NCBI GenBank assembly: GCA_947502645.1
Contig: CANNAD010000001.1
Location: forward strand, 682,001 to 746,000
From: an uncultured Micrococcaceae bacterium
GTDB taxonomy: Bacteria > Actinomycetota > Actinomycetes > Actinomycetales > Micrococcaceae
Reading direction: 5' to 3'
DNA length: 64,000 nt
The notes under the pieces: generated by a model
Database searches by the model: none
Seen by the model: only the letters and a program-made list of their open reading frames with translations
What the model was told of the DNA's origin: nothing
In this document: piece by piece, positions 5,860-55,636 of the stretch
Layout: each line of letters starts with the position of its first letter
Numbering within the stretch: position 1 is the first letter of the stretch
Program-made: the position numbers and the translations under genes

Positions 5860-5892
5860 TTCGATTATGGAACGCTGAGTTCAACTATCGAA
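5860..5892 (+). promoter_or_regulatory. Twin TTC-N7-GAA operators
   Basis: Two copies of the palindrome TTCRAYTATSGAA lie at 5860-5872 (TTCGATTATGGAA) and 5880-5892 (TTCAACTATCGAA). They are exactly 20 bases apart, two helical turns, and sit 33-66 bases before the aromatic hydroxylase start. The layout is what a tetrameric IclR-type activator of aromatic catabolism would bind. No IclR gene lies in this window. Confidence 0.55.
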
Positions 5893-5925
5893 CACCAATA
5901 GAACCGCTTAGAAGTGAGGACACCC

Positions 5926-14957: not shown

Positions 14958-15010
14958 GACGGCGACCGCGACCTGCCTTGATACAGCACCGGCATGGCAT
15001 CATAAGAACC

Positions 15011-15556: not shown

Positions 15557-15678
15557 TCAGATACGTCACCCTTGGGGAAAAGTTGGCAGCGACCGCCCTT
15601 CTGATCACCGACACCGCTTTGGCCCGAGGACCAGACGCTCTGGTCTCCACCCACTAACGCACTCGGACAGGATGAGCT

Positions 15679-16014
15679 TTGAAACACGCAGCTTCCACTG
15701 ACACGGACTCCACACGCCCCCGCCCTCGCATCGTCTGTATTTGCGGGTCGGTGAGGTTCTGGCCGGAGATGAATGCGCTGATGCGACGATTGTCCCTCGA
15801 CGGACACATAGTTGTTGCTCCGGTTAATCTCGAAGGTGGCCGCGACCAATTGACTGAGCAAGATCGACGGCGGCTCAACGCACTTCATCTGCGCAAGATC
15901 GACTTGGCAGATAGCGTGATGGTTGTCTGCCCCGGGAACTACATCGGCGAATCCACCGCCAAGGAGATTGCTTACGCCACCGCTGCAGGAAAACAAATCG
16001 ACTATGTCTCGTGA
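15679..16014 (+). CDS. Nucleoside 2-deoxyribosyltransferase-like / DUF4406-type small protein
   Basis: A 111-residue Rossmann-like domain with CICGSVRFWPEMNALMRRL at the start, a middle RRLNALHLRKIDLADSVMVVCPG segment and a closing GESTAKEIAYATAAGKQIDYV. This order matches the nucleoside 2-deoxyribosyltransferase / DUF4406 fold, in which small domains bind nucleotides. The start is uncertain: TTG 15679 follows AGGATGAG. It stands alone, close to the 3' end of a convergent flavin oxidoreductase. Confidence 0.6.
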   Translation: MKHAASTDTDSTRPRPRIVCICGSVRFWPEMNALMRRLSLDGHIVVAPVNLEGGRDQLTEQDRRRLNALHLRKIDLADSVMVVCPGNYIGESTAKEIAYATAAGKQIDYVS

Positions 16015-16081
16015 GCCATTTCGATGCGAGGGTGAAGCGGCGAAGGTCTCGGCCTGGCTATGGGCATCTACGAAGGCGCTA

Positions 16082-17101: not shown

Positions 17102-17175
17102 GCCCACAACAACCGCGCGGCAGAAGCGCTCATTCCCGGCAGACTCCGTAATGGACTTCAGAACACGTTCCGAGT

Positions 17176-17181
17176 TAGGCT
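17176..17181 (+). promoter_or_regulatory. Leaderless -10 element for the antitoxin gene
   Basis: TAGGCT lies exactly six bases before ATG 17188 and no ribosome binding site is present, so the transcript probably starts at the ATG. Confidence 0.45.
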
Positions 17182-17187
17182 TACGAC

Positions 17188-17643
17188 ATGAGCACATTAA
17201 CCCCATCGCGAACCACGTTTCAGTCTTCTGACCTGAGCCGCTCTTCCGCTGAGGTATTCGCGGCTGCGGCAGATCACCCTGTCGAGGTCACCCGTCGTGA
17301 CGGTGAATCTCTGGTGCTGATGTCCGGTAGCGCAGACCGGGCGCGCACTTCCCTGCTGGAACTCGCGGCTCAGCTTGTCGCCGTATCCACGAGCACGGAC
17401 GGAACTCTCGCGACTCGCATGAGCGATCGATTCCCGTGGATGCTCGCACTGAGCGCCACCGATCAGGAAGCCTGTGCCAATGATGTCTTGTCCGCCGCAC
17501 GCGCTTCCTTCGCCACCAACCAGCCTCACCTGGCCATTGCCGAACTCACATCTTGGCGGGAAACTGCGACGGCTATCGCCGCTGGTCTCGGCAAAGAACC
17601 TGTCGAGTGGCTTGATGACGCTGAACTCATCGAGCGCCCCTAA
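17188..17643 (+). CDS. Phd/YefM-like antitoxin candidate
   Basis: A 151-residue protein. The N-terminal ~50 residues (SSDLSRSSAEVFAAAADHPVEVTRRDGESLVLMS) form a Phd/YefM-type fold that starts with a residue pattern of the kind 'F-x-S-x-D-L-x-R-x-S-x-x-V' seen in antitoxins that bind DNA and a toxin. The C-terminal ~100 residues form a helical extension. The downstream 113-residue gene starts 3 bases after its stop, as in classical toxin-antitoxin operons. The call is by fold resemblance and gene order. Confidence 0.6.
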   Translation: MSTLTPSRTTFQSSDLSRSSAEVFAAAADHPVEVTRRDGESLVLMSGSADRARTSLLELAAQLVAVSTSTDGTLATRMSDRFPWMLALSATDQEACANDVLSAARASFATNQPHLAIAELTSWRETATAIAAGLGKEPVEWLDDAELIERP

Positions 17644-17646
17644 AGC

Positions 17647-17988
17647 ATGGCGAAGAGCGCAAAGGTCGAACGGCCAACCAAGAAGGTTGAATACGAGCTT
17701 CGGTTCGCCTCTGTTCCAGCGAAGCGTGGTTGGACGGACCTACAAGCCACGATCAGAAATTCATTGGTCGATACGTGGGATTTTCTGACCAAAACCCCTC
17801 GGGCCACTACACCCACCAACTACCGTTTACGTGGTGAGCTGGGTGTCGTGAAGCGGGATGGCTCCACCCATGAGCGATGGCAACACAAGCCGACGCTCAA
17901 GGGTGATGCCCGCATTTGGTTCTACGTTGCCGATCAAGTGGTCTACCTTGAGCAGGTACACACACGCCATCCGAACGAGACCAAATAA
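17647..17988 (+). CDS. Putative RelE/ParE-like toxin
   Basis: A 113-residue basic protein with YELRFASVPAKRGWTDLQATIRNSLVDTWDFL in the first half, then a beta-rich stretch (YRLRGELGVVKRDG...RWQHKPTLKGDARIWFYVADQVVYLEQVHTRHP). The closing ARIWFYVADQVVYLEQVHTRHP matches the last strands of RelE/ParE-fold toxins (RIxYxVxDxxVxVxxVxxRxxxY). RelE toxins cleave mRNA at the ribosome, ParE toxins poison gyrase; which applies here cannot be told. It follows the antitoxin candidate by 3 bases. Confidence 0.6.
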   Translation: MAKSAKVERPTKKVEYELRFASVPAKRGWTDLQATIRNSLVDTWDFLTKTPRATTPTNYRLRGELGVVKRDGSTHERWQHKPTLKGDARIWFYVADQVVYLEQVHTRHPNETK

Positions 17989-18001
17989 TAGTGCCCCCAA
18001 A

Positions 18002-18724
18002 CTACTCAGAAGCCCGGTTCATCCTTGCGAAGTAGTGGAACCGGTCTCCGCGGAACACTGATCTGGTCCACTCAACCGGCTTATCGTCAGCGTCCAGTCC
18101 GCGCCGGTGGATCATCAGCAGCGGAGCGCCTACTTCCACCACGAGAAGCCGGGCCTCATCCGGCCCCGCAACACGGGTGGCCACCGTATCTTCAGCGACG
18201 GCGATCTCGATCCCATAGCAACGGCTCAGCGTGGAATAGAGCGACCCATGCTCATCAAGATGGGTACGAATATCCCCAAGGTCTCCAGGTACGTGAGCGG
18301 TCTCGTGGGCGAGAGGTTCGCCGTTGATGAGGCGCACCCTTTCAACCCGGGTCAGTAGCGAGCCCGGGGCAACGCCGAGCTGCGCAGCCTGCAGGGCATC
18401 GGCTGGCACGACGTCTACGGAAATAATCCGGGACGAGGTGTCCAGGTTCTGCACACCGGCGTCCTCGGAAAAGGATGTCAGCTGGCGGACGTAGGTGGGA
18501 TGAGGCGCCGCGACAAACGTGCCTTTCCCCTGTGTGCGGTGCAGAACCCCTTCGGCGACCAGCTCCGCAATGGCCTGCCGCACCGTGGTCCTCGACGTCG
18601 CATACCGTGCGGCCAGAGTGCGCTCCGGCGGAAGTGTTGCGCCGGGCTCCGAGTCAGCTGCGAGCACGCGTAGCTCTTCTTTGAGCACGTAGTACTTGGG
18701 GGCAGTTGAGACGGGTAAGGCCAT
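18002..18724 (-). CDS. GntR/HutC family regulator (DasR/NagR-like)
   Basis: A 240-residue regulator. The N-terminal winged helix-turn-helix (about residues 8-72) includes LPPERTLAARYATSRTTVRQAI; the C-terminal UTRA domain (about 85-235) carries LTRVERVRLINGEPLAHETAHVP, typical of HutC-family proteins that sense phosphosugars. In actinobacteria DasR/NagR members control N-acetylglucosamine genes and release DNA on binding glucosamine-6-phosphate or a related sugar phosphate. The divergent sugar operon and the two palindromes between them support this role. Confidence 0.88.
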   Translation of the reverse strand: MALPVSTAPKYYVLKEELRVLAADSEPGATLPPERTLAARYATSRTTVRQAIAELVAEGVLHRTQGKGTFVAAPHPTYVRQLTSFSEDAGVQNLDTSSRIISVDVVPADALQAAQLGVAPGSLLTRVERVRLINGEPLAHETAHVPGDLGDIRTHLDEHGSLYSTLSRCYGIEIAVAEDTVATRVAGPDEARLLVVEVGAPLLMIHRRGLDADDKPVEWTRSVFRGDRFHYFARMNRASE

Positions 18725-37867: not shown

Positions 37868-39241
37868 ATGGCAAAACCGAAGAAGGGCAAACCAGCGGAG
37901 GAATTCGCGGCCCCAGATCTTGAGAGCCCGGAGGGGCGCAAAACCATTCGACGGGCTATTGCCGGATCTGCCATTGGAAACGCAACCGAGTGGTTCGACT
38001 ACGGCGTGTACGCCGTCGTCGTCACCTATATCACCGCCAACTTCTTCCCCGGCGGCACCGAATGGGCGCTGGCAACATTCGCCATTTCGTTCCTGGTCCG
38101 CCCTCTCGGCGGATTCTTCTGGGGTCCGCTGGGCGACAAGATTGGCCGCAAGGCTATCCTGGCCCTGACGATCGTCCTCATGGCCGGCGCGACGTTCGCG
38201 ATCGGTCTCATTCCGAGCTACGAGTCGATCGGCTGGTGGGCTCCCGCACTGCTGATCCTGATGCGGCTCATTCAGGGTTTCTCCGCGGGTGGCGAATATG
38301 GTGGTGCGGCCACGTTCATGGCCGAATATTCCCCGGACAAGAAGCGTGGCTTCTTCGGCAGCTTCCTCGAATGCGGCACCCTGATCGGCTTTGCGCTCGG
38401 AACCGCCATCGTCCTCTTCCTGCAACTGATCCTCGGCGATCAGGCGATGCAGGAGTGGGGCTGGCGTATCCCGTTCCTGATCGCTGGACCACTGGGCCTG
38501 ATCGGCTTCTACCTCAGGAACAAGCTGGAGGACACCCCGGTATTTCGTGAGTTGGACGAAGCTAACGGTGAAGAGCCCAGTGCCAAAACGGAGTTGCGCG
38601 ACCTTGTCCGTAAGTACTGGCGCCCCATCCTCGCCATGTCCGGCCTGGTCATTGCGCTCAACGTAGCCAACTACACCCTCCTCAGCTATATGCCCACCTA
38701 TCTAGAGACCCAGATCGGCATGTCGAATAATGCCTCGCTCACCCTGATCCTCATCGGTGAGCTGATCATGATCGTCTTGATTCCATTCGCCGGACGACTT
38801 TCCGACAAAACAGGACGGCGCCCCCTCTGGCTGGTGTCCATGGGCGGACTACTGGTGCTCGCGATCCCGATGTACCTGTTGATGTCCACGGGTTTCGTTG
38901 GGGCCCTGATCGGCTTCGCGGTACTCGGCATCCTCTACATCTTCCAGTTAGCCACTATCTCGTCCACGTTCCCGGCGATGTTCCCCACCCAGGTCCGGTA
39001 CGCAGGTTTTGCGATCACCTACAACGTGGCAACCGCGATCTTCGGCGGAACCGCGCCTCTGGTCAACGAGGCTGCGATCGAGAGCACCGGTGATCTTCTG
39101 TTCCCTGCCTATTACATGATGGGCGCCAGCGCTATCGGTCTCCTGGCCCTCCTCTGGGTCCGTGAAACCAAGGGCGAGTCCATCCGAGGAACCGAAATAC
39201 CCGGAGAGCCGACGGCCGCGGAGAAAGCCACCACGGCCTGA
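37868..39241 (+). CDS. MHS-family MFS transporter (ProP-like)
   Basis: A 457-residue 12-helix transporter of the metabolite:H+ symporter family. GNATEWFDYGVYAVVVTYI at helix 1 and GDKIGRKAIL in the 2-3 loop match the proline/betaine ProP and alpha-ketoglutarate KgtP group. The substrate is unresolved: proline, betaine or a dicarboxylate. It has its own upstream ribosome binding site (GAAAGGGA) and precedes a semialdehyde dehydrogenase, which hints at shared use of a GABA-type or succinate-type substrate. Confidence 0.87.
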   Translation: MAKPKKGKPAEEFAAPDLESPEGRKTIRRAIAGSAIGNATEWFDYGVYAVVVTYITANFFPGGTEWALATFAISFLVRPLGGFFWGPLGDKIGRKAILALTIVLMAGATFAIGLIPSYESIGWWAPALLILMRLIQGFSAGGEYGGAATFMAEYSPDKKRGFFGSFLECGTLIGFALGTAIVLFLQLILGDQAMQEWGWRIPFLIAGPLGLIGFYLRNKLEDTPVFRELDEANGEEPSAKTELRDLVRKYWRPILAMSGLVIALNVANYTLLSYMPTYLETQIGMSNNASLTLILIGELIMIVLIPFAGRLSDKTGRRPLWLVSMGGLLVLAIPMYLLMSTGFVGALIGFAVLGILYIFQLATISSTFPAMFPTQVRYAGFAITYNVATAIFGGTAPLVNEAAIESTGDLLFPAYYMMGASAIGLLALLWVRETKGESIRGTEIPGEPTAAEKATTA

Positions 39242-39300: not shown

Positions 39301-40698
39301 ATGAGTGCATACAAGACAGTTAACCCAGCCACTGGTGAAACGCTGAAGGAATTCGAGCAGACCACGGACGCGGACATTCAGGACGTTCTGACGCGCTCGC
39401 ACAAGGCCTACGGTTCCTGGCGTCGCACCGCCGTCGAAGACCGCACCGCCATCCTGACCCGCGTCGCGGAACTCTACAAGGAACGCAAGGACGAGCTCGC
39501 CTCCATCATCACCATGGAGATGGGCAAGCCCAAGGGCCAGGCGCAGGCCGAAGTGGACCTTTCCGCAAGCATTTACCAGTACTACGCGGACAAGGGCCCG
39601 CAGTACATGCAGGATGAAACGATCGACGCCGTCGGCGGCGGTGAAGCGGTAGTCCGCACCGAACCCATTGGTTCCCTGGTGGGCATCATGCCGTGGAACT
39701 TCCCCTACTACCAGGTGGCACGTTTCGCCGCGCCGAACCTGCTGCTCGGCAACACGATCCTGTTGAAGCACGCCGAGAACTGCCCGCAGTCGGCCCTCGC
39801 CATGGAGCAGATTTTCAAGGACGCAGGCCTGCCCGAAGACGCGTACATCAACATCTTCGCAACCAAGGAACAGATCGCGGACATGATCGCCGATCCTCGG
39901 GTACAGGGTGTTTCCCTCACGGGGAGCGAACGTGCCGGATCCGCCGTCGCCGAGGTTGCCGGCCGCAATCTGAAGAAGTACGTGCTGGAACTGGGCGGAT
40001 CAGATCCGTTCATCGTGCTCGACAGCGAGGACCTGGACAAGACCGTCAAGGCCGCCGTCGCCGGTCGGTTGGGTAACGCTGGCCAGTCATGCGTCGCGTC
40101 GAAGCGGTTCATCATCCAGGAGAAGTACTACGACGATTTCGTGGAGAAGTTCACCGCACGGATGTCGAAGATGAAGCCGGGCGACCCCAGCCAGGCGGAT
40201 ACGCGTTTCGGTCCGTTGTCCTCACAGGCTGCAGCGGATGGTCTGATCGAACAGATCAAGGACGCCGTGGACAAGGGCGCCACGCTCCGTACGGGTGGAA
40301 ACCACATCGACGGGCCCGGAGCATTCGTCGAGGCCACTGTCCTCACGGACGTGACGCCGGATATGCGCGCCTACCATGAAGAGCTTTTTGGCCCGGCAGC
40401 GGTCGTGTACAAGGTGGCTGACGAGGAAGAAGCCATCGAGCTCGCCAACAGCTCGGCCTACGGTCTCGGCGGTTCCGTGTTCAGCGCGGACACAGCCCGG
40501 GCGCAGTCCGTGGCGCATCGGCTGGAGACGGGCATGGTGTGGATCAACTCCGTCACCAGTACGCAGGCAGACCTGCCGTTCGGCGGAGTGAAGCGCTCCG
40601 GCGTCGGGCGTGAACTCGCGAAGTACGGCATGGACGAGTTCGTGAACCGCAAGCTGGTCCGCACGCCAGCATCCAAGCCGGCACAGCCCGCTGGCTGA
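39301..40698 (+). CDS. NAD(P)-dependent succinate-semialdehyde dehydrogenase-type enzyme
   Basis: A 465-residue aldehyde dehydrogenase. The catalytic Glu is E230 in [10 protein letters not shown] and the catalytic Cys C264 in [12 protein letters not shown]. The N-terminus ([15 protein letters not shown]) and the [45 protein letters not shown] block fit the GabD/Sad group, which oxidises succinate semialdehyde to succinate. Other aldehydes cannot be excluded. No GABA transaminase is adjacent. Confidence 0.88.
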
Positions 40699-44001: not shown

Positions 44002-45279
44002 CTAGCTCTGATCCAGCTGGCCTTCCAGTAACTGACGAAAAACTTCCGTGAGCATGTGGACGCCAGCAACAATATCGTCGTCGGACGTGTATTCATGCTC
44101 GTTGTGGGAAATACCTGCAACGGAGGGGACAAACAACATCACGGTCGGCACAAGGTCCTTCATATTGGTGGAATCGTGCCCGGCCAGAGTCTTGACGCGC
44201 CCGTAGGTCAGCCCAAGGCCGGCCGCAGCTTTTTCGGCCAGGTCAACACCCTCAGGCTGGTACGGCATGACAGGCCAGCAATGGGACGCGTGCTTCTCGA
44301 TCGCCACATTGGCGGCTTTTTCAATGGCCGCGACCCGCTTGTGCAGGGTGGCGTCCGCCTCGGCGAGCACCGCTTCGTCAGCGGAACGAAGGTCCAGCAG
44401 CAGACTCACGCGGGAGGGTACGACGACGGGCGAGTTGGGGTAGACGTCAAGCTGACCAACCGACGTGTGCAGAACTCCGGGATACTGATCTGCCACTTCA
44501 CGCGCGGCGACCACCAGCATAGATGCACCCAAAAGCGCGTCCTTGCGGTCTGCGATCACAGTGGACCCGGTGTGCGCCTGCTCGCCGTGCACCACAAACT
44601 CGTACTTGTTCGCGGCCCAGTTGGAGTCCACCAGACCGATGGTGACGCCGTCGCGCTCCATGCTGCGGCCCTGCTCTATATGAATTTCAGCCGCATACGC
44701 AGCCTTGGGCGCGGGCCCTGCACCGAGGCAACCGATGCTCTCCAGTGCCTGCCGGACCGTGATCCCGGACGGATCGGTCACGGCCAGAGCCTCAGCCAGA
44801 TCGAGTTTGCCGGTGTAGACAGAGCTGCCCATCATCGACGGCTTGAAACGTGCGCCCTCTTCGTTGAACCAGTTCACGACGGCGATGTTGTATCTGGGCG
44901 TCTGCCCGGACTCACGATACGAGGCGGCCAGCCGGAAGGCAGCGTGCGCTGCGGCGAGAACGCCATACGCACCGTCGTAACGGCCAGCTGTCGGCTGCGA
45001 GTCCATGTGTGATCCAACAATGACGAACGGAGCCCCGGGAACCAGCTCCAACAGACCGAACTGGTTGCCGATCTCATCGAAACGAACCTCAAAGCCCTGC
45101 TCCCGCAGGAGTGCCGTGAACCAGACCCGCTGCTCGCCGTCGGCCGCTGATCCTGCCTGCCGGTCAACGCCGCTGTTGCCTGTCGCGCCGAAGGTGCACA
45201 GGGTGGCGAAGTCAGTGATGAACCGGGCGTCGTCGCCGGTGAAGTTCGCGGGATTCGGTTCGGTGATCATGGTCGACAT
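44002..45279 (-). CDS. M20-family Zn-dependent amidohydrolase (allantoate / N-carbamoyl amino-acid hydrolase type)
   Basis: A 425-residue enzyme from ATG 45279 (AGGAATAGAT upstream). Zinc ligands are visible: His in VGSHMDSQPTAG, Asp in GRYDGAYG, Glu-Glu in NEEGARF, His in EIHIEQGRSME and a C-terminal His in ISHNEHEYTS. This set is typical of allantoate amidohydrolases, beta-ureidopropionases and N-carbamoyl amino acid hydrolases, which hydrolyse ureido or amide C-N bonds. It follows the thiamine-diphosphate enzyme gene by 56 bases. Confidence 0.88.
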   Translation of the reverse strand: MSTMITEPNPANFTGDDARFITDFATLCTFGATGNSGVDRQAGSAADGEQRVWFTALLREQGFEVRFDEIGNQFGLLELVPGAPFVIVGSHMDSQPTAGRYDGAYGVLAAAHAAFRLAASYRESGQTPRYNIAVVNWFNEEGARFKPSMMGSSVYTGKLDLAEALAVTDPSGITVRQALESIGCLGAGPAPKAAYAAEIHIEQGRSMERDGVTIGLVDSNWAANKYEFVVHGEQAHTGSTVIADRKDALLGASMLVVAAREVADQYPGVLHTSVGQLDVYPNSPVVVPSRVSLLLDLRSADEAVLAEADATLHKRVAAIEKAANVAIEKHASHCWPVMPYQPEGVDLAEKAAAGLGLTYGRVKTLAGHDSTNMKDLVPTVMLFVPSVAGISHNEHEYTSDDDIVAGVHMLTEVFRQLLEGQLDQS

Positions 45280-45335
45280 ATCTATTCCTGTCAGGCTGTG
45301 GTGGGGTTCAGGGGCGGAAGCGGCGGGCGCGGGTC

Positions 45336-47009
45336 CTAGACGTCCGATGACTTCGGTGAACGGGTGGTGGGATCCTGCAGCAGATGCAGGACGGCAGGCT
45401 TGCCGCTGGCGACGGCGCGGCGGAAGGCTTCCCGGAACTCTTCTGTACGTTCCACGCGCTCTCCGTGTCCGCCGTAGGACTCCGCCCACTGGCGGAAATC
45501 CGGGTTGGTCAGTTCGGTGCCGGAGGGGCGGCCCGGGTAGTGGCGCTCCTGGTGCTCGCGGATGGTGGCAAAGCAGCCGTTGTCGAGGACGATCGCGATG
45601 AACGTACCGCCGTAACCGATGGCAGTGGCGATCTCCTGACCGCTCATCAGGAAGTCGCCGTCGCCCTCAATAGCGATGACCTGGCGGTCCGGGAACATCA
45701 GGCTGGCCGCGACAGCTGCCGGAACTCCCATGCCCATGGCGCCGTTGCGCGGTGCTGCCAACGAATTTGCTGACGTGTGGGGCAGATAGCGTGCAGCCCA
45801 CAGGGCATGATTACCGGCACCGTAGGTGATGACGGCATCTGCGGCCATTTCTTCGCGGAGCACTTCCATGCACAGCCCGAAGTCCACGCCCTCGCCGCCA
45901 TCGGCCCGGGGAGTGCTGAAGCGCTCATACTCGTCCCGGCCGTTCGCCAGCCACTGAGCCGAACCACCAGTGGTGAAATCCTGATCCGCAAGCGCGCGGG
46001 CAAACTCATCTACATCGGCGACAATCTGCTGGTCCAGCCGGCCGAAGTGCCCCAGGGTATCTCCGGGCATAGCCACAATCGTCTCGGCTTTCAAACCCCG
46101 CGTATAGCCGTCGCTGAGCACATCACTGCGGGTACAGCCGATGAACAGCAGCAGATCCGCCTCATCGAAACGGCTGGCCAGCGCATCGCTGCGCCCATAT
46201 CCCAGGGACCCTACGTAACTGTTGCCGCCCTCGAGTATGTGCGGAACGGCGTCGTAGGCGCGGAAGTCAGCGGCCACGGGTATGTTGCTTGCGGCCGCCC
46301 AGCGGACCAGTGCATCGCTGGACTCCTGCGTCCAGCCTTCGCCGCCGACGACGATCAGCGGCTTTCGCGCTTCGGCGAACCGCTCCCCCAGCTCGGTCAT
46401 GGCGGAGACGGAGGGTTCCGCGACGGCGAGCGCGCGTGGCTTCACCGGCTGGCCGCCGTCGACCATGTGGGTGATGACGTCCTCGGGCAAACCGATCACG
46501 ACGGGGCCAGGGCGTCCGCTCATGGCAGTGTGCATGGCGTCGTCGACCACGAGAGCGGCGGAGGCTGCGTCGTCGAGCGTCACTACCTTCTTGGCGGTGC
46601 TGCCGAACCAGGCGTTGATGTCGAACTCCTGAAAGGACTCCCGGCCGCGGTCAACGATCGGGATCAGCCCTACAAACAGGACAAGCGGCGTCGCATCCTG
46701 ATAAGCGGTGTGCACTGCGATGAGTGCGTTGGCGGCGCCCGGGCCGCGGGTGACCATTGCGATGCCGGGGAGCTCGCCCAGGCGGCCTTCGGCCAACGCC
46801 ATGAACCCGGCCCCTCCCTCGTGGCGGGCAACTATCGTCGAAATCGAGGAATCGTGGAGGCCGTCCAGGACGTCGAGGAAGCTTTCGCCGGGAACGGAGT
46901 AGACCCGGCGGATGCCAGCAGTCTCCAGTTGGGACACGATCAGGTGACCTGCGGAAACGGCGGTGGACTGCGGTTGGGTGCCGGTGCTCAAAATTTCGTA
47001 ACCTTCCAT
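45336..47009 (-). CDS. Thiamine-diphosphate-dependent enzyme (acetolactate synthase-like)
   Basis: A 557-residue protein with three domains: Pyr (about 1-170, catalytic Glu in VARHEGGAGFMA), central (about 190-330) and PP (about 360-545, with GDGDFLMSGQE and LDNGCF, the thiamine-diphosphate/Mg site). It resembles acetolactate synthase and other 2-oxo acid decarboxylases or carboligases. An alternative start is TTG 46991, preceded by GGAAGG. It stands in a minus-strand pair with the amidohydrolase; substrate unknown, not obviously pyruvate. Confidence 0.85.
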   Translation of the reverse strand: MEGYEILSTGTQPQSTAVSAGHLIVSQLETAGIRRVYSVPGESFLDVLDGLHDSSISTIVARHEGGAGFMALAEGRLGELPGIAMVTRGPGAANALIAVHTAYQDATPLVLFVGLIPIVDRGRESFQEFDINAWFGSTAKKVVTLDDAASAALVVDDAMHTAMSGRPGPVVIGLPEDVITHMVDGGQPVKPRALAVAEPSVSAMTELGERFAEARKPLIVVGGEGWTQESSDALVRWAAASNIPVAADFRAYDAVPHILEGGNSYVGSLGYGRSDALASRFDEADLLLFIGCTRSDVLSDGYTRGLKAETIVAMPGDTLGHFGRLDQQIVADVDEFARALADQDFTTGGSAQWLANGRDEYERFSTPRADGGEGVDFGLCMEVLREEMAADAVITYGAGNHALWAARYLPHTSANSLAAPRNGAMGMGVPAAVAASLMFPDRQVIAIEGDGDFLMSGQEIATAIGYGGTFIAIVLDNGCFATIREHQERHYPGRPSGTELTNPDFRQWAESYGGHGERVERTEEFREAFRRAVASGKPAVLHLLQDPTTRSPKSSDV

Positions 47010-47104
47010 CAAGCGGTGACGACACCTCAGGCAGAGGGCCGCCTTCCCATCGTGCCATCCGGATTTCATCTGGGGAGTAGCTATTGCAAACAGGTTTTCC
47101 GTCC

Positions 47105-47110
47105 TAGAGT
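47105..47110 (+). promoter_or_regulatory. Leaderless -10 element for the PucR-type regulator
   Basis: TAGAGT lies exactly six bases before ATG 47117. TATTGC at 47082-47087, spacer 17, may be its -35. This supports the ATG at 47117 over the GTG at 47111. Confidence 0.5.
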
Positions 47111-47116
47111 GTGCGT

Positions 47117-48295
47117 ATGCACACGCCGGACTCCCCCACTCCCGGAGCCACCGCCACGGACCGAACGGACGAGCGCTGGTTCGAGTTGCTCAACGATCTC
47201 AAGTTGTCGCTGCCCAGGCTGCGTGAGATGTTTGTGGCGCGTGTGCAGGAAACTCCGGAGTATTCCCAGCACGCTGTGTCAGCTGAAGAACTACAGCAGG
47301 CGGCGTCGGTAGCCCTGTCGTTGATCCTTGATGCGATGTCCGGCGAACAATACTATCCGCGAATGCGTGTGTACGGTACGGAGCTGGGCACTCTGCGCGC
47401 CCGGCAGGGGTTGTCCTCGGAAGCGCTCATGTCTGCGGTGCGTCTGGATTTCCCGGTGATCTGGGCCGGGCTGCTGGAGGCTTCCCGTCCTGAGGACGCC
47501 GAGTTGCTGACGTGCCGGGCCGAGGAAGTCTGGCGGGTGGTGGATGACTTTGCCCAGGCCACCAGGGACAGCTACATTGACACCCGCATCCGGATGGCGC
47601 AGGAAGAGTCCGGCGTCCGGCAGGAGTTCATTGCAGCACTTTTTGGTGCCCAGGGCCGGCTGGCCGAAGTTCGCGAACGCTTCGCGAATGCTTTCGAGAC
47701 GGATTCCGAGGCACCATATGTCATTGCCGCTGCTACTGGCAGTGCAGCTGTCCAGCTCCGCCAATTGGCTAGCTTTCCCACACGTGACAAACGCGTTTTC
47801 CTGCATGAGGCTGAAAACTGTACTTATCTATTCTGGCCCGAGACTGCCACGCACGGGGCTGGCAACAACTTCCGGTGGGCGCCATTGAATAAGGTCAGCT
47901 GCGGGCTCGCGCGTTCAGAGCACGGGTTATCGGGTCTGGCAGCGGCGGCACGCGTGGCCGCAGCGCTCTCAGAGCTCGCAGACCCAGCTGAATCTGGGCC
48001 CAAAACGGTGGATCGGGACTGGCCGCGCATGGCGCGCTCGCGTCTGGATGAACTCGGCATTGAGCTGAGGGCCGAGCTGGAGGCTCAGATGGCACAGTGC
48101 CGGCCGGAAGAAGCAGACAGGATGCGCGAAACAGTCCTGTGTTTCATCGCCAACGGCAGCGTCAGTGACACTGCCGCTGAGCTGTACTGCCACCGGAACA
48201 CCATATTGAACCGGTTGCGGCGGTTCCGGGAGGTCACAGGCCTTGACCTGACCATTCCCCACCAGGCTGCCCGAATCGTTATCGCCTGGTCCTGA
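47117..48295 (+). CDS. PucR/CdaR-family transcriptional regulator
   Basis: A 392-residue regulator. The C-terminal ~60 residues (CFIANGSVSDTAAELYCHRNTILNRLRRFREVTGLDL) form the PucR-type helix-turn-helix (HTH_30); the long N-terminal part lacks a recognisable sensor motif and probably senses a ligand directly. It lies divergent from the thiamine-diphosphate enzyme and upstream of the TRAP operon, so it likely activates both. PucR proteins often regulate purine or ureide catabolism. Confidence 0.85.
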   Translation: MHTPDSPTPGATATDRTDERWFELLNDLKLSLPRLREMFVARVQETPEYSQHAVSAEELQQAASVALSLILDAMSGEQYYPRMRVYGTELGTLRARQGLSSEALMSAVRLDFPVIWAGLLEASRPEDAELLTCRAEEVWRVVDDFAQATRDSYIDTRIRMAQEESGVRQEFIAALFGAQGRLAEVRERFANAFETDSEAPYVIAAATGSAAVQLRQLASFPTRDKRVFLHEAENCTYLFWPETATHGAGNNFRWAPLNKVSCGLARSEHGLSGLAAAARVAAALSELADPAESGPKTVDRDWPRMARSRLDELGIELRAELEAQMAQCRPEEADRMRETVLCFIANGSVSDTAAELYCHRNTILNRLRRFREVTGLDLTIPHQAARIVIAWS

Positions 48296-48417
48296 AAGGA
48301 CGGAGGTTCATTCCTGCCCGGGGCTGCGCGCTTCCACAGCGTTGCGTGTGCGTCTGCCCAGTCCGACGGCGTCAATCGTGTGCGATTCATCCTTGTGAGC
48401 TCCGTCTCAGGACTGGA

Positions 48418-48430
48418 TAGTTGACAACTA
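48418..48430 (+). promoter_or_regulatory. Palindrome before the TRAP operon
   Basis: TAGTTGACAACTA is a perfect palindrome with a single central A (arms TAGTTG / CAACTA). It lies 84 bases before the TRAP binding-protein ATG in a 219-base gap and is a candidate binding site for the PucR regulator or another factor. Nothing else is recognisable in the gap. Confidence 0.5.
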
Positions 48431-48514
48431 GTTCCGCAGTGGATTGCACCGGTCATACCCCCGATCGAGGCGGCTTGCGGATGAACACAGGTTCGTTCAA
48501 GGGAAGGTAGACCC

Positions 48515-49609
48515 ATGCTAAAGAAGAAGCTCGTTCCAGCGGCAGCGCTTGCTGTAGCAGCACTGGCCCTGTCCGGTTGCGGCGGCGGAAGCCAGAGCGC
48601 CGATGATGAGAAGACGTGGGAGCTCAAACTCGCCTCGTACCAGCCCCCGACGGCGGCCGAGCCGGTCGCCACCAAGCGCCTGGCCGAGGAAATCGAAGAG
48701 AAAACCGATGGCCGGGTCAAGATTGAGTTCTTCTTCCAGGAAGCATTGCTCCCGGGTGCAGAGACGCTGCAGGGTGTGGCCGATGGCCGCGCCGACATGG
48801 GCTACATTGCGGATGCGTACTACCCCGCACAGCTTCCTTTGACCAACATCGCCGGCGTGCCGTTCCTGACCAGCAGCCCCGAAGCCCAGGGCCACGCCTT
48901 CTCCCAGATGTATGACGAGAACGAGGCCTTCCGCGCAGAGTGGGACAAGCAGGGCGTACACGTTCTCACCTGGTCTCCCGTCCCGCCGAACGTCGTTGCG
49001 GCCAAGAAGCCGGTAGACAGCCTCGATGACCTCAAGGGTCAGCAAGTCCGTCAGATCGGCTACTCCGGCCCGGCCTTCGAGATGGCAGGCATGAATCCGG
49101 TAGCAATTTCGCAAAGCGAGGTCTACGAGGCCCTGCAGCGCGGAGTGCTCGACGCCACGTCAGGCGGGTCACTGGACATCCTCACTGACCGCGATTACCA
49201 GGAAGTAGCACCCCATTTCGTGGATGTGAACTCCGGTAACTACGCCGTCACGATGAACGTGATCAACAAGCGCACCTGGGAAAGCATGCCCAAAGATATC
49301 CAGGACATCATCAACGAAGCCACCTCGGACTACATGGATTCCTACATAGAGGTGCTGTACGAAGCTGAAGCCAAGGCCTGCCAGGAGCTGCTGGACGCCG
49401 GTGGAACAGCCACCGTCCTCCCAGACTCCGAGACAGCTGACTGGGAAGCAAAGGCTGGTCCGGCTGTGCTGGATCTGTGGATGAAGGACGCAGCATCGAA
49501 CTCTGATGCAGACCCCGCCGCGTTCTACGACGAGTACACCGCGGCCCTGGAGAAGTTTGAGGCCGAGGCGGAGTACGTGCCAGCCATGCAGCGCTGCGCA
49601 GACAAGTAA
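48515..49609 (+). CDS. TRAP transporter substrate-binding lipoprotein (DctP family)
   Basis: A 364-residue lipoprotein (lipobox ALSGC, lipidated C22). A DctP domain follows: the QPPTAAEPVATKRLAEEIEEKTDGRVKIEFF start, PLTNIAGVPFL and the Arg-containing VRQIGYSGPAFEMAGMNPVAISQSEVYEALQRGVLDATSGG block, where the conserved arginine binds the ligand's carboxylate. Hence a carboxylic acid is the likely ligand. GGGAAGG precedes the ATG. First gene of a four-gene operon. Confidence 0.92.
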   Translation: MLKKKLVPAAALAVAALALSGCGGGSQSADDEKTWELKLASYQPPTAAEPVATKRLAEEIEEKTDGRVKIEFFFQEALLPGAETLQGVADGRADMGYIADAYYPAQLPLTNIAGVPFLTSSPEAQGHAFSQMYDENEAFRAEWDKQGVHVLTWSPVPPNVVAAKKPVDSLDDLKGQQVRQIGYSGPAFEMAGMNPVAISQSEVYEALQRGVLDATSGGSLDILTDRDYQEVAPHFVDVNSGNYAVTMNVINKRTWESMPKDIQDIINEATSDYMDSYIEVLYEAEAKACQELLDAGGTATVLPDSETADWEAKAGPAVLDLWMKDAASNSDADPAAFYDEYTAALEKFEAEAEYVPAMQRCADK

Positions 49610-49636
49610 CCGTAACGGAAACGAGATCACCCTCCC

Positions 49637-50203
49637 ATGAGTGAACAAATGCGTGAGCGCCGCGTCAGCTGGCCCCGGCGTGCCATCAACTTGGTGGCAC
49701 GCGGGCTGGCCGCAGTCGCCGTCCTGCTCATTATCTTCATGATGGTTTCCACCGTCGCCGACGTCATCAGCCGTCAGCTCACCGGTCAAGCCATTCCCGG
49801 CGTCATCGAAGTGGGTGAAGTGCTCATGGTCTCGACCGTGTTCCTGGGTCTGGCCTACGCCGAGACCCGTGGGGCACACGTCAACATGAACCTGGTGATC
49901 CGCAAACTTCCCCCACGAATCGCATCGATCGCAACCAGTCTCGGATTGCTGCTGGTTCTGTTCGTGGTCGGCTGGATGGTCATCGTCACGGGCATGCGGG
50001 CAGTCGAGGCGTTTGAGGTCCAGGAGTACAGGTTCGGTCTGGTGCAGATCCCCGTATGGCCTGCACGAATCGCCCTGGCCGTTGGCCTTGCCGCCTATTT
50101 CCTATCCCTGTTACCCCGCCTGGCGGATGACCTCCGCGGGATTTTCCGTCCTCGTGAAGCTCGCATCCAGGACACCACTATTCCGGAAGGAGGAGCATTC
50201 TGA
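49637..50203 (+). CDS. TRAP transporter small permease (DctQ)
   Basis: A 188-residue protein with four hydrophobic helices. The VADVISRQLTGQAIPGVIEVGEVLMVSTVFLGLAYAETRGAHVNM block is the DctQ signature. It overlaps the large permease gene by one base (TGATG). Confidence 0.92.
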   Translation: MSEQMRERRVSWPRRAINLVARGLAAVAVLLIIFMMVSTVADVISRQLTGQAIPGVIEVGEVLMVSTVFLGLAYAETRGAHVNMNLVIRKLPPRIASIATSLGLLLVLFVVGWMVIVTGMRAVEAFEVQEYRFGLVQIPVWPARIALAVGLAAYFLSLLPRLADDLRGIFRPREARIQDTTIPEGGAF

Positions 50204-51609
50204 TGGAAGTTTTCCCGGTCGTCGTTTCGATCATCATCCTCCTGTTCCTGCTCATCTCAGGCATCCCCGTAGCCAATGCACTCGGTAGCACCGGCATTAT
50301 CGGGCTGCTCATCCTCAGCGGCTTCGACCTGGCCAGCAACGTCATCGCCGGAACTTCATACTCGGCAGTAGGCAAAGCCAACCTCGTCGTGGTCCCCATG
50401 TTCATCCTGATGGGCATGCTGACACTACACAGTGGAATCGCTGAACAACTTTTTGCGCTCGCTTCCAGATTCCTGAAGAAACTCCCCGGCGGCCTAGCCG
50501 TTTCCACCATCTTTGCCTCGGCCGGGTTTGGAGCGGTGACGGGGTCAAGCCTCGCCTCTGTGGCGACCCTGGGCCGCACAGCGATCACAGAGATGATTCG
50601 CCATGGCTACAACAAGTCATTCGCCTCGGCCGCAGTTGCGGTCTCCGGTTCGCTTGCCGTCCTGATCCCGCCGAGCATCATCCTGGTGCTCTATGGATCC
50701 ATCACGGGTGAGTCGGTCGGCGCCTTGCTGCTGGCAGGTATTGTCCCCGGAATCCTGTCCGCCATCATGCTGGCCAGTTTCGCGATCATGTTGGCCTACC
50801 GCAAACCGGCGCTCGTCAACGCTGGGCGGGCGTCCTTGGTAGGATCCGCCGTCGGAGGCAGCGGAGGCAGCGGCATGTCCGCAGGCCAGAGTAATCTCGC
50901 GGCCATGGGCATTCCGGATGAGGGCGAGATCAAGCTCAGCCCGGCGTCAGCCATCCGCGCAATCATCGCCATCGCACTGATCTTCATCATTGTTATCGGC
51001 GGCATCTACTCGGGCTTCTTCACCCCGAGCGAGTCTGCAGCAGTGGGTGCCGTTGTTGCACTCATGCTGATCATCACCCAGTACATGAAGCAGCCCCGGA
51101 AACTGCTCAGCAACGTGTCATTGGCACTGCGCGAGACCGTCTCGCTGAACTCCATGATCTTCCTGATCCTGGTGGGCGCGGGGATCTTCTCCTACTTCCT
51201 CGTGATGGCCGGCGTACCAACAGCGCTGTCAGAGTTTGTCGTCGGGATGCCGATCGCACCGGAGCTGACGGTGATCCTGCTGCTTCTGGTCCTGATCCCG
51301 GGCGGCATGTTCCTGGACTCGATTTCACTGCTGGTCATCACCGTCCCGTTGGTCTACCAGCCCATTACGGATCTGGGTTTCGACGGAATCTGGCTCGGCA
51401 TCCTCGTGGTCAAGCTGATCGAACTGGGAATGATCACACCACCGATCGGACTGAATGCGTTCGTCACCGCCGGTACTACGCCGGGACTCGAGGTCGATCA
51501 GGTGTTCAAGGGAATCTTCCCCTACTACATCGCCGACTTCCTGATCATTGCGGTGCTGTTCGCCTTCCCTGAGATTGTGACCTTCCTGCCCGAAATGTCG
51601 GCGGCCTGA
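50203..51609 (+). CDS. TRAP transporter large permease (DctM)
   Basis: A 468-residue membrane protein with about 12 hydrophobic helices, including the SGSLAVLIPPSIILVLYGSITGESVGALLLAGIVPGI segment and the C-terminal GMITPPIGLNAFVTAG, both DctM hallmarks. With DctQ it forms the sodium-driven channel. A ~40-residue glycine-rich loop (GSAVGGSGGSGMSAGQS) separates the halves. Confidence 0.94.
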   Translation: MEVFPVVVSIIILLFLLISGIPVANALGSTGIIGLLILSGFDLASNVIAGTSYSAVGKANLVVVPMFILMGMLTLHSGIAEQLFALASRFLKKLPGGLAVSTIFASAGFGAVTGSSLASVATLGRTAITEMIRHGYNKSFASAAVAVSGSLAVLIPPSIILVLYGSITGESVGALLLAGIVPGILSAIMLASFAIMLAYRKPALVNAGRASLVGSAVGGSGGSGMSAGQSNLAAMGIPDEGEIKLSPASAIRAIIAIALIFIIVIGGIYSGFFTPSESAAVGAVVALMLIITQYMKQPRKLLSNVSLALRETVSLNSMIFLILVGAGIFSYFLVMAGVPTALSEFVVGMPIAPELTVILLLLVLIPGGMFLDSISLLVITVPLVYQPITDLGFDGIWLGILVVKLIELGMITPPIGLNAFVTAGTTPGLEVDQVFKGIFPYYIADFLIIAVLFAFPEIVTFLPEMSAA

Positions 51610-51625
51610 CCAGATTGGAAAAATC

Positions 51626-52276
51626 ATGACCGATACCGTGTCTGAAGTAGACCTCCAGGAACTGCTCAACAAACTCAGCAGAGTCGAGTTCCCTACCCTG
51701 GGGCACTTCCTCGAGGACGGGTTTTGTGCACCGGAAATCCGATCAATGGTCGCGGGTCCGCGGATGGTGGGAATCGCTTGCACCGCCAGGATTCCTGATG
51801 CCGATGCGATAGCCGTCAATCAGGCCCTCGTCCAGCTGAAGCCGGGTGAGGTACTGGTCCTGGACATGGCGGGTGACTATGGACACGCACCGGTCGGTGC
51901 CGTCACAGCAGCCGCCGCCCGGGCTCAGGGCGCCGCCGGAATCCTGGTGGACGGCGCTGTGACTGATTTGCCCGAGCTCAATGCCGGCGCCAACGGTAGT
52001 GTTCCGTTGCCGGTGTTTGCCCGCGGCACTACGTGCAGGACGACGAAACGCAAAGGCTCAGGCCAGGCGGAGTTCGGTGTCCCCGTCACTATAGGCGGGG
52101 TCACCGTGAATCCCGGCGACTTCGTACTCGGCGATGCCAATGGGGCACTGGTGCTGACTGCGGAGTCCGCTGCTGAAGTTGTCGATCTTGCCCTCGCCTC
52201 CGACGATGCTGAACCAGGTATTCTGCGTCGCATCGCGTCGGGGGAACCGCTGGAGAAGATCCTCTATATGGGGTGA
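51626..52276 (+). CDS. RraA-family protein (catalytic arginine replaced)
   Basis: A 216-residue RraA / demethylmenaquinone-methyltransferase-like fold protein. In HMG/CHA aldolases and related oxaloacetate decarboxylases the substrate-binding pair is R-D in DGAVRD; here it reads DGAVTD (T113, D114). The metal-ligand Asp is kept, the pyruvate-binding Arg is not. PVFARGTTCRTTKRKG and GVPVTIGGVTVNPGDFVLGD are otherwise normal. It is the last gene of the TRAP operon and may act on the imported acid by a different reaction. Confidence 0.85.
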   Translation: MTDTVSEVDLQELLNKLSRVEFPTLGHFLEDGFCAPEIRSMVAGPRMVGIACTARIPDADAIAVNQALVQLKPGEVLVLDMAGDYGHAPVGAVTAAAARAQGAAGILVDGAVTDLPELNAGANGSVPLPVFARGTTCRTTKRKGSGQAEFGVPVTIGGVTVNPGDFVLGDANGALVLTAESAAEVVDLALASDDAEPGILRRIASGEPLEKILYMG

Positions 52277-53167: not shown

Positions 53168-53329
53168 TGTAATAGACGTCACAAATGTTTGTTGTGTCGG
53201 CGTGCGGTTCTCGACGGGGAGCAGCACACTCGCCAAACACCTCGCCCCCATGACGAGGGCCTACAGGCCACGCCTCGTCCGTCCTTTACCGGTCGTTGAC
53301 CGCTGTTGCTACCCCAGAGGAAATTCGCC

Positions 53330-55636
53330 ATGCCCAATTCACCCCTGCGAGCCACCGCGGGCAGCCGTCTTCACGGCGTCCTGACAGTGCTCCTGGCACT
53401 GTTACTCATTGCCATGCTGGCCTTCTTTGTCCTGTTCTCCGGCAAGGTTTCCGCCGGCGCGAACGAGCTCAACGATGGAGCTATCCGCGCCTCGGACGGC
53501 GCTTCCGCCCTGAACACGGGGGCTGCCAAAGCTGCCGACGGCGCGGGCAAAGTCGCCGACGGAACCGCCAAGGTCGACGACGGCGCCCAGAAACTCGCCG
53601 AGGGCCTGAAGGAAGCCGACGCCGGAGCCGTGAAGCTGAAGAAGGGCGCCGCCGCACTGGACGACGGCGCCGGAAAGCTCGCCACCGGCGCCAATACTGC
53701 TGCCGAAGGTGCCATGACGTTGGAAGCGGGCGCTGCAAAGCTCGCCGTCGGAAATGACAAGGTGGCCGCAGGTGCTGGCCGTGCTGACGCCGCAGCGCAG
53801 AAACTCTTCGCTGGCGCCGCCAAATTGACGGCCGGAGCCATGGCTGCGAACAAGGGCTCCATTGATCTGTCCGAGGGTGCAGGCAAGCTCGAGGCCGGTG
53901 CGGGTGCGCTGGCCTCTGGCGCAACCCAGCTCAACACCGGCGCGAAGTCGCTCTTCCTGGGCGCGAAGGCCGTCGATCAGGGTGTCACCGACCTCGGTGC
54001 AGGCGTGGATCAGGTTCATACCGGAGCTGGCGCGCTCTCAGCAGGCGCGGGTCAGGTACAGGCAGGTGCGCAGCAGCTTGCTGACGGAACCGATCAGGCG
54101 AAAGCGGGATCGCAGCAGGTCGCCGACGGCGCGGCAGCTGTTGACGGAGGCGTGAAAACCGTTGACGGAGGCGTTCACCAGCTTCAGGCCGGTGCCGCCG
54201 AGCTGAAGGCGGGCACCACTCAGGTCAAGGATGAGGTCATCGCCAACCTTCCCGGCTCACAGCGGCTGGTCGACGGCGCCAAGGCGGTCAGCGACGGCGC
54301 CGCACAGCTGAACGCAGGCACCCTTCAGGTCGACGGCGGTCTGGCGCAGCTGCAGGCCGGATTCAAGGGCGACGGCACCCCCGAAAACCCGGGCGCCGTC
54401 AATGGTTCGAAGCAGCTCGCGGACGGCCTGGAGCAGCTCCGGCTCGCGCTCAAGGCAGGAATCCCCCCGGCACTGCTCATGGACAAGATTGACGAGGCCG
54501 TAGCTGGGGCGCACGCATTGAATGAGGGAATCGTGCAGGCGGATGCCGGAGTTGACCAGCTCAAGGACGGCTCCGCGCAGCTCGTCCAGGGGTCGGCTGC
54601 CCTGAAGGATGGGGCAGCCCAGGTCCATGCCGGCACGCAGGAGTCGCAGCGTAAAACCCAGAGACTCCTCGATGAAGGCATCACGCCCATCGACAACGGG
54701 GTAACCCGCCTGCAGGAAGGTATGAACCAGCTCGAGGCTGGCCTCCACCACGGCGGCGACGGTGACGGCGGAAAGCCCGGTCTCCTCGAGGGCACCAAGG
54801 CGCTCATGCTGGGATCAGCTAATCTGAACACCGGGCTTGGCAAGCTGCAGGCCGGTTTCCAGGGCGATGGCACCGCCGACAACCCGGGCCTGGTCAAGGG
54901 TGTCGGGGCACTGGAGCAGGGCGCGTCAGACCTTGCGGCGGGAACCACGAAGCTCAGTGCTGGTGCTGACAAACTGTCGAACGGCACCGGGCAGCTCGCT
55001 GCAGGTTCACAGGAGCTCTACAACGGAACAGACCGGGTAGCCACCGGAGCCAGCACCCTGGCAAACGGGGCCGGCGAGCTGAGCGCAGGATCCCTCAAGC
55101 TGGCCGATGGTAATGGTCAGCTTGCTGCAGGTGCCGTGAAGCTGGAAGACGGCACTGGCGAACTTGCGTACAAGACACCGGGCCTGGTTGACGGTGCCTA
55201 CGCAGCCGCCGACGGCGCACGACAGATCAGCGTTGGCGCATCGAAGCTCGCTGACGGCAACTACAAGCTCGCCGAAGGTGCCATCAAGCTCGAAGACGGC
55301 TCCGGGCAGCTCGCCACCGGAACCAAAACCCTGGCCAAGGGCACCGAAAAGCTCAGCACCGGTGCCGGCGACCTCACCGAAGGAACGGCCGAACTCAACG
55401 CCGGAGCTGCGGACCTCGCGGAAGGCAACGCGGCACTGGCCGACGGCGCGGAGAAGCTGGCAACAGGCAACGGCGAGATCCAGGACGGCACGGAGAGGAT
55501 GAGCACGTCGACGTCGGCCATGACGCCCGGCCAGCTGGCGTCCTCCCCCGCTATCCTGGCGATCCTCATCCCGATCCTGCTCGTGGGAAGCCTGCTGGTC
55601 ATGATGCTCGTAACCCGCTCACGCGGCGCGCACTAA
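53330..55636 (+). CDS. Membrane-anchored xxxLxxG heptad-repeat protein (YhgE/Pip-like)
   Basis: A 768-residue protein from ATG 53330 (AGAGGAAA upstream). One membrane helix (about residues 17-40), then roughly 690 residues of heptads of the kind KLADGTA / QLAAGAA with Leu/Val and Gly at fixed positions, i.e. the xxxLxxG repeat, then a final helix (about 740-760: ILAILIPILLVGSLLVMML). The repeats predict an extended extracellular coiled coil or solenoid. Such proteins are associated with type VII-like secretion or phage receptors in other bacteria. Highly repetitive DNA follows the protein repeat. Confidence 0.85.
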   Translation: MPNSPLRATAGSRLHGVLTVLLALLLIAMLAFFVLFSGKVSAGANELNDGAIRASDGASALNTGAAKAADGAGKVADGTAKVDDGAQKLAEGLKEADAGAVKLKKGAAALDDGAGKLATGANTAAEGAMTLEAGAAKLAVGNDKVAAGAGRADAAAQKLFAGAAKLTAGAMAANKGSIDLSEGAGKLEAGAGALASGATQLNTGAKSLFLGAKAVDQGVTDLGAGVDQVHTGAGALSAGAGQVQAGAQQLADGTDQAKAGSQQVADGAAAVDGGVKTVDGGVHQLQAGAAELKAGTTQVKDEVIANLPGSQRLVDGAKAVSDGAAQLNAGTLQVDGGLAQLQAGFKGDGTPENPGAVNGSKQLADGLEQLRLALKAGIPPALLMDKIDEAVAGAHALNEGIVQADAGVDQLKDGSAQLVQGSAALKDGAAQVHAGTQESQRKTQRLLDEGITPIDNGVTRLQEGMNQLEAGLHHGGDGDGGKPGLLEGTKALMLGSANLNTGLGKLQAGFQGDGTADNPGLVKGVGALEQGASDLAAGTTKLSAGADKLSNGTGQLAAGSQELYNGTDRVATGASTLANGAGELSAGSLKLADGNGQLAAGAVKLEDGTGELAYKTPGLVDGAYAAADGARQISVGASKLADGNYKLAEGAIKLEDGSGQLATGTKTLAKGTEKLSTGAGDLTEGTAELNAGAADLAEGNAALADGAEKLATGNGEIQDGTERMSTSTSAMTPGQLASSPAILAILIPILLVGSLLVMMLVTRSRGAH

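Follow-up and report, generated by a model that had tools for sequence, protein, structure and literature searches.

A putative catabolic regulon for an amide-type organic acid in a Micrococcaceae genome, in an apparent TRAP-importer variant

A 64-kb stretch of DNA from an uncultured Micrococcaceae bacterium with a 2.67-Mb genome (the window; assembly GCA_947502645.1, contig CANNAD010000001.1, positions 682,001 to 746,000) carries side by side the genes for an M20-family hydrolase, a thiamine diphosphate (ThDP)-dependent enzyme, a regulator, the three components of a tripartite ATP-independent periplasmic (TRAP) transporter and an RraA-fold protein. The question raised by this locus is whether these genes act as one set and, if so, on what kind of compound. 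The first-pass annotation, made from the sequence alone, had proposed a module that imports an organic acid, hydrolyses it at a C-N bond and decarboxylates or ligates the resulting 2-oxo acid. The analysis described here indicates that the locus is probably a local catabolic regulon, of a kind present in Micrococcales and other Actinomycetes, for an amide-type (C-N) organic acid, represented in the window by a TRAP-importer variant. The seven open reading frames (ORFs) lie where the annotation had placed them and belong to the families it had named, apart from corrections to the regulator's domains and to the 5' end of the M20 ORF given below, with m20-thdp on the minus strand followed by regulator-dctP-dctQ-dctM-rraA on the plus strand (all coordinates are positions in the window):

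44002-45279, minus strand: M20 hydantoinase/carbamoylase-type C-N hydrolase (NF006772, 453 bits; TIGR01879, 278 bits)
45336-46991, minus strand: ThDP-dependent enzyme of the PRK08199 subfamily (NF006052, 572 bits)
47117-48295, plus strand: MabR-type regulator with globin-like/RsbRD_N, GGDEF-like and HTH_30 domains (Pfam and fold matches)
48515-49609, plus strand: DctP, TRAP solute-binding protein (PF03480, 151 bits; Arg179 in LKGQQVR)
49637-50203, plus strand: DctQ, small TRAP permease (PF04290, 82 bits)
50203-51609, plus strand: DctM, large TRAP permease (PF06808, 260 bits)
51626-52276, plus strand: RraA-fold protein, from a subfamily that lacks the D-X20-R motif of the aldolase (PF03737, 107 bits; cut-off 24.5)

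The start codons of the first three genes were judged by eye from the upstream sequence and from relatives. The M20 ORF extends upstream to 45489, inside the ThDP gene, and ATG 45279 is its likely start; the ThDP ORF extends upstream to 47069 and probably starts at TTG 46991 behind GGAAGG; the regulator starts at ATG 47117.

Co-conservation was assessed by a profile scan of genome contigs with 15 aligned ThDP orthologues (A1). The scan kept the best 80 matches, which lay in 79 loci, and all shares given for these loci therefore hold among the closest ThDP relatives. The loci came from Arthrobacter, Pseudarthrobacter, Streptomyces, Agrococcus, Agromyces, Cryobacterium, Leucobacter, Brevibacterium and others. 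An M20 gene stood near the ThDP gene in 68 of the 79 listed loci and a regulator gene in 69. RraA, RidA and MFSb, the major facilitator superfamily (MFS) symporter type that accompanies RidA-RraA, occurred together in 35 loci and were jointly absent from the other 44. MFSa, the MFS type that accompanies ThDP-M20, was present in 51/79, a YtcJ-type amidohydrolase in 48/79, an aldehyde or succinate semialdehyde dehydrogenase (ALDH/SSADH) in 36/79 and an ArgE/DapE-type hydrolase in 8/79; DctP, DctQ and DctM were each found in none. Two layouts recurred: type A, in which a regulator accompanies MFSb-RidA-RraA-ThDP-M20-SSADH (individual loci may miss members), and type B, in which a regulator accompanies MFSa-ThDP-YtcJ-M20. 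In many Arthrobacter loci a type A and a type B arm flank one regulator. Many of the 79 loci are closely related, and some records in the different samples are the same (G121 is L055, G175 is L056 and L202 is L082), so the counts are not independent events.

The association was also seen with RraA as the anchor. Eleven of 197 genomes of the family were RraA-positive, the window's genome included, and ten of these had a ThDP homologue within about 6 kb of RraA. The ThDP gene is missing from the eleventh (L199), where recombinase-like and transposase-like ORFs were seen by eye. That locus (genome G162, 14339-18220) is a type A locus without ThDP and most of M20 and with a broken regulator gene; it retains MFSb-RidA-RraA and one operator site of the kind described below. 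In a wider sample RraA was found in 14 of 396 genomes of the order, and 11 neighbourhoods were retrieved: one held a full type A locus (L202), six held MFSb-RidA-RraA without ThDP or M20, and four held just an RraA relative of 42-49% identity. Three loci from genomes of 7.8-8.2 Mb (L209-L211) have RraA relatives of 42-43% identity with no module partner within 20 kb; a single 35% SSADH match lies at the edge of the neighbourhood retrieved for L210.

Since M20, ThDP, regulator and RraA genes recur together, the set is co-conserved as far as sequence can tell, and the proposal that these genes form one functional set is supported. The same comparison separates the TRAP genes from that set: the synteny predicted by the first-pass annotation holds for M20, ThDP, regulator and RraA, and the transporter, which it had counted as part of the combined module, appears to be a local importer replacement. 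That annotation had also missed the usual partners, namely RidA, an SSADH-type dehydrogenase, an MFS symporter and a YtcJ or ArgE/DapE hydrolase, and overall it is upheld in part.

A palindrome, first spotted by reading the divergent regions near the regulator start, provides a second link between the genes. The predicted operator and three weaker sites upstream of dctP are as follows:

47110-47123, no strand: predicted operator TGTGCGTATGCACA, an exact TGTG-N6-CACA that covers the regulator start codon, in the region where the ThDP and regulator genes diverge
48325-48338, no strand: weak site resembling the operator, 1 mismatch, upstream of dctP
48347-48360, no strand: weak site resembling the operator, 1 mismatch, upstream of dctP
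48476-48489, no strand: weak site resembling the operator, 1 mismatch, upstream of dctP

Exact TGTG-N6-CACA occurs twice in the window, at 47110 and 56204, and the fuller form TGTGCN4GCACA occurs once in the 2.67-Mb genome, at the window site (six occurrences of a reversed-pattern control). The three one-mismatch sites fall within 206 bases upstream of dctP and are the only such cluster in the 64 kb; the Poisson estimate of 1.5e-5, calculated from the window's other sites, is for that one stretch and was made after the sites had been noticed. For comparison across loci, regulator promoter regions of 310 bases were collected from 69 loci, the ten without a regulator match of at least 25% identity being left out. 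An exact site was present in 45/69 of these regions and in 18/34 MFSb upstream regions, whereas the other 1.39 Mb of these loci held 12 exact sites. With up to one mismatch the figure was 63/69, compared with 76 of 1336 random control stretches, which may include MFSb promoters carrying real sites (10 exact in 1336). The half sites were spaced by N6 in 45 of the 69 regions, N4 in 8, N8 in 3 and N3 in 1; every other spacing from 2 to 12 bases gave none.

In six genomes, all from one genus (g37), MFSb-RidA-RraA forms a unit unlinked from ThDP, and each has an exact site 90-165 bases upstream of the MFSb match. The ThDP enzyme of each is encoded at a second locus, where a regulator, MFSa, ThDP and M20 come with a single exact site in 12 kb (6/6). 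These six MFSb-RidA-RraA units were outside the set used for the motif, and two of the second loci (L220 and L223, which match L113 and L107) were inside it; the six genomes are related and are not six independent events. Operator sites thus mark both arms of the window locus, the predicted site on one being exact and those on the other weak. With sites on both arms, the regulator would be expected, on present sequence evidence, to bind at least one of the two promoters, and it is predicted to bind this operator.

The regulator itself carries the ‘PucR C-terminal HTH’ (PF13556, HTH_30), which is the only Pfam domain matched by the window protein. Among 38 regulator homologues HTH_30 was matched in 38, GGDEF_2 in 11 and RsbRD_N in 10; the PucR domain proper (PF07905) was not among the families matched by these homologues and is absent from the window regulator, the genome's one PF07905 hit lying outside the window. 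The predicted model of the regulator (mean predicted local distance difference test score, pLDDT, 90.9) matches the Rv2242 fragment 9f80 and the structure 3onq with E values of about 1e-5; its matches to globin sensors are weaker (E 0.015 and up). Because the domain matches and fold hits fit the architecture described in PMC11617747, the regulator is assigned, on its model, to the MabR type, with globin-like, GGDEF-like and HTH_30 domains. The earlier argument that a PucR protein implies ureido nitrogen fails because the regulator has no PucR domain. Corynebacterium glutamicum GabR has PF07905 yet controls the use of gamma-aminobutyrate, according to PMC7652997.

The M20 protein exceeds the cut-offs of two families: TIGR01879, the hydantoinase/carbamoylase family (278 versus 204 bits), and NF006772 (453 bits), whose NCBIfam name is ‘allantoate amidohydrolase’. 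It falls below the AllC equivalog (188 versus 597.75 bits), the allantoate deiminase model NF006768 (226 bits, cut-off 532) and the model of ErtE of the ergothioneine pathway (239 bits, cut-off 520). After a length and identity filter, 67 of 68 M20 sequences were kept for alignment; the Glu pair of NEEG is conserved in 67/67 and the substrate Arg in 66/67. The Asn of the N-[IV]-[IV]-P stretch, which has a role in substrate binding and is present in beta-alanine synthase, is replaced by Val in all 67 module members, the window's included. Both module types therefore share an altered M20 pocket.

The ThDP enzyme belongs to the PRK08199 subfamily (572 bits, cut-off 539), and Glu51, the catalytic Glu of ThDP enzymes, is invariant in the 15 aligned orthologues. 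Catabolic and biosynthetic acetolactate synthases were considered and rejected, as the window protein does not reach their equivalog cut-offs. A 5-guanidino-2-oxopentanoate decarboxylase was rejected as well: PRK07524 scored 235 bits against a cut-off of 500 for a Cupriavidus homologue and was not among the best 25 of 54 families for the window protein. The one indication near the ThDP gene that a 2-oxo acid is decarboxylated comes from its ALDH neighbours. In three of the four annotated proteobacterial plasmid loci inspected, an ALDH gene lies directly 3' of the ThDP gene.

The RraA-fold protein was compared with its nearest solved structure, the 4-hydroxy-4-methyl-2-oxoglutarate/4-carboxy-4-hydroxy-2-oxoadipate (HMG/CHA) aldolase 3noj. 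Its AlphaFold model (pLDDT 92.5) aligns with 3noj at Z 24.3 and a root-mean-square deviation of 2.1 over 202 residues, which places it within the RraA-like fold. The D-X20-R-D motif of the aldolase is not preserved, the window protein having Thr for Arg123 and Ala for Asp102 (numbering of the 3noj alignment). Across the subfamily, Arg123 is replaced by Thr in 34 of 35 members (one gap) and Asp102 by Ala in 33 of 35 (one Asp, in L080, and one gap); Asp124 is kept, and the signature HAPVGAVT ... VTD ... TTK marks the group. The RidA partners keep their substrate Arg in 35/35. The RraA-fold identity given by the first-pass annotation holds, and the loss of two aldolase residues is what its account had missed.

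The window itself departs from type A in that its RraA gene has neither RidA nor MFSb alongside. Because RraA elsewhere pairs with RidA and MFSb while no listed locus carries TRAP genes, the window is a putative variant in which the TRAP importer replaces MFSb and RidA. Its closest ThDP relatives belong to Arthrobacter loci with RraA (74-75% identity). The genes dctP-dctQ-dctM-rraA are codirectional, with gaps of 27, -1 and 16 bases. DctP is a member of PF03480 with a lipoprotein-like signal (by eye), and Arg179 within LKGQQVR is presumably the carboxylate-binding Arg. No match to it above 35% identity was found in the 396 sampled genomes of the order and 197 of the family, nor above 32% in plasmids, and the nearest solved chains (4n6d, 4nap and 4pgn) are too distant for transfer of a ligand. 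The best MFSb-like matches in the window's genome reach 30-45% identity; MFSb proteins within module loci share 65-81%.

Two other loci have an importer of another kind than MFS beside related sets. On plasmid pBB1 of Cupriavidus necator N-1 (L178), TRAP ORFs, an HpcH/HpaI lyase, ThDP, M20, ALDH, MFSb and RraA stand in one run, with identities of 64% for MFSb, 56% for RraA, 38% for ThDP and 35% for M20; DctP and DctM were assigned there by distant match and DctQ by eye. The same pathway may have been assembled there in parallel. In genome G035 (L200) the set has a GntP-type ORF (identified by eye) as a neighbour, and its 16.7 kb gave no match to MFSb or RidA.

From these assignments we infer a pathway that comprises import, hydrolysis of a C-N bond, decarboxylation of a 2-oxo acid and oxidation of an aldehyde. 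The MabR-type regulator would bind TGTGC-N4-GCACA and control two divergent arms, importer/RraA and ThDP-M20. DctPQM would import the organic acid, as a carboxylate, and the M20 enzyme would hydrolyse its C-N bond; RidA, not encoded at this locus, would hydrolyse any enamine or imine formed. The ThDP enzyme may then decarboxylate the resulting 2-oxo acid, and an SSADH-type dehydrogenase may oxidise the aldehyde, while the RraA-fold protein would work on the acid skeleton and not as a classic pyruvate aldolase. The M20 and ThDP families make the C-N hydrolysis and the 2-oxo acid envisaged in the first-pass annotation plausible. The dehydrogenase could be supplied from within the window:

39301-40698, plus strand: SSADH-like aldehyde dehydrogenase, candidate partner (67% identity to the SSADH adjoining RraA in L039)

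This gene is a putative ortholog that may serve the same pathway.

Several observations weigh against this reading. Because the TRAP genes are absent from the 79 loci, the link of the importer to the set rests on adjacency, on the weak operator sites and on the Cupriavidus run. RidA is absent from the window locus, and the genome holds one 32% relative elsewhere. The window regulator shares just 24-31% identity with its counterparts in L078-L080 and L082, which are full type A loci. In G035 the hydantoinase-type M20 is just a fragment and there is no exact operator site. The core set has no recurring oxidase or dehydrogenase to supply the 2-oxo acid, and the function of the ThDP enzyme is assigned by subfamily, so that carboligation is possible. 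The exact site is missing from 24 of the 69 regulator promoters, six of which lack even a one-mismatch site, and from 16 of the 34 MFSb promoters; over the full 64 kb, sites with up to one mismatch numbered 17, fewer than the 28.7 expected from shuffles.

The TRAP genes could also be an unrelated importer, for a C4-dicarboxylate or another acid, inserted between the regulator and RraA genes of an otherwise conserved pathway, as their absence from the listed loci and the distance of DctP from its matches (at most 35% identity in sampled genomes and plasmids) would allow. The close codirectional spacing of dctPQM with rraA, the weak operator sites upstream of dctP and the lack of a clear MFSb ortholog in the genome argue against such an insertion, as do the joining of TRAP ORFs to the same gene set on pBB1 and the GntP-type transporter that stands beside the set in G035, and it is considered unlikely. 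Still less credible is a global role for the palindrome: its TGTG/CACA half sites resemble those of the CRP class, and a GlxR site is quoted in PMC7652997, but the spacing is N6 rather than N8 (45 versus 3 of 69 regions), the single TGTGCN4GCACA in the window's genome would be unexpected for a global regulator, and the palindrome goes with the regulator locus as well as with unlinked RraA units. That it is a CRP/GlxR-type site and not the operator of the local regulator is thus highly improbable.

Two further alternatives concern the chemistry. In a ureide route the M20 protein would be an allantoate amidohydrolase and the ThDP enzyme would resemble glyoxylate carboligase, leading from allantoate through glyoxylate to tartronate semialdehyde; the NF006772 subfamily name would suit this, as would ORFs resembling a glycerate kinase (L080) and an aminotransferase (L077), seen by eye beside single loci. 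Glyoxylate carboligase, however, lacks the catalytic Glu that the module enzymes retain within PRK08199, the AllC and NF006768 scores are far below cut-off (188 versus 598 and 226 versus 532 bits), the Asn-to-Val change is universal in the M20 set and the regulator lacks PF07905, making this route very unlikely. The RraA protein might instead be a normal aldolase of the 4-hydroxy-4-methyl-2-oxoglutarate/oxaloacetate type that ends the pathway with pyruvate, its nearest fold being 3noj. The consistent replacement of Arg123 and Asp102 argues against this: Arg123 is reported in PMC5065237 to be essential for aldolase activity, and with the R123K change kcat falls from 15.6 to 0.086, about 180-fold. 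A normal aldolase is accordingly rated as distinctly unlikely. It is conceivable, as a more tentative extension of the catabolic regulon favoured here, that RraA proteins with the HAPVGAVT-VTD-TTK signature catalyse a reaction new to the fold, such as the hydrolysis, decarboxylation or isomerisation of an acid that bears an amide, in an undescribed actinobacterial pathway with a substrate-sensing MabR-type regulator. If so, the locus offers a tractable MabR-type regulator-operator pair.

Some observations concern neighbouring genes. In the window, an MFS-type transporter gene (37868-39241) lies directly upstream of the SSADH-like gene and its product has 34% identity to MFSb, and a 776-residue ORF (53306-55636), read by eye, is mostly short Gly/Ala-rich repeats and has a membrane-like segment at its C terminus. 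Elsewhere, a second M20 hydrolase, ArgE/DapE-type by eye, recurs in L055-L057, L078, L079, L081-L083 and L200; it is possibly an alternative to the YtcJ amidohydrolase. In L080, a type A locus of Cryobacterium, ORFs resembling hutI, hutF, hutU and glycerate kinase lie nearby (1-3502 and 4870-6012, by eye).

Searches of the open-access literature, outside which most subscription papers lie, gave no title or abstract on the gene set and no description of the RraA subfamily or the operator. The component families are known, and the regulon, operator and TRAP variant appear undescribed in the literature searched. An unassigned cluster becomes a defined regulon with a predicted operator and a fixed partner set, and two testable surprises emerge: an RraA subfamily without the aldolase residues, and the replacement of an importer. 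The effectors of MabR are stated to be still unidentified in PMC11617747, and a local catabolic regulon with a screenable substrate would be a way into them.

Among known systems, the lumichrome cluster of Nocardioides simplex, as described in PMC12746152, likewise uses several amide-type hydrolases followed by ThDP-dependent decarboxylation. Its LumK and LumL are proteins of 20 and 23 kDa, whereas the window has one PRK08199 chain, and its P450, xanthine oxidase, Rieske and ring-cleavage enzymes are not among the recurring module genes; the lumichrome pathway was rejected as a match, its ThDP enzyme being of another kind. The M20 enzymes resemble the beta-alanine synthase/L-carbamoylase/allantoate amidohydrolase family (TIGR01879) in score, NEEG Glu pair and substrate Arg, but differ from it in carrying Val at the Asn position; ErtE shares the M20 family with the window protein, which falls under the cut-off of the ErtE model. 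The module RraA has the fold and Asp124 of the HMG/CHA aldolase/RraA family (PF03737) and, unlike the aldolase, has Asp102 and Arg123 replaced. The regulator resembles MabR (Rv2242) in its globin-like N-terminal domain, GGDEF-like domain and HTH_30 (PMC11617747), the match to the solved MabR structure being to the C-terminal fragment (9f80), and differs in its setting: MabR sits with mycolate genes, and the window regulator with a catabolic locus.

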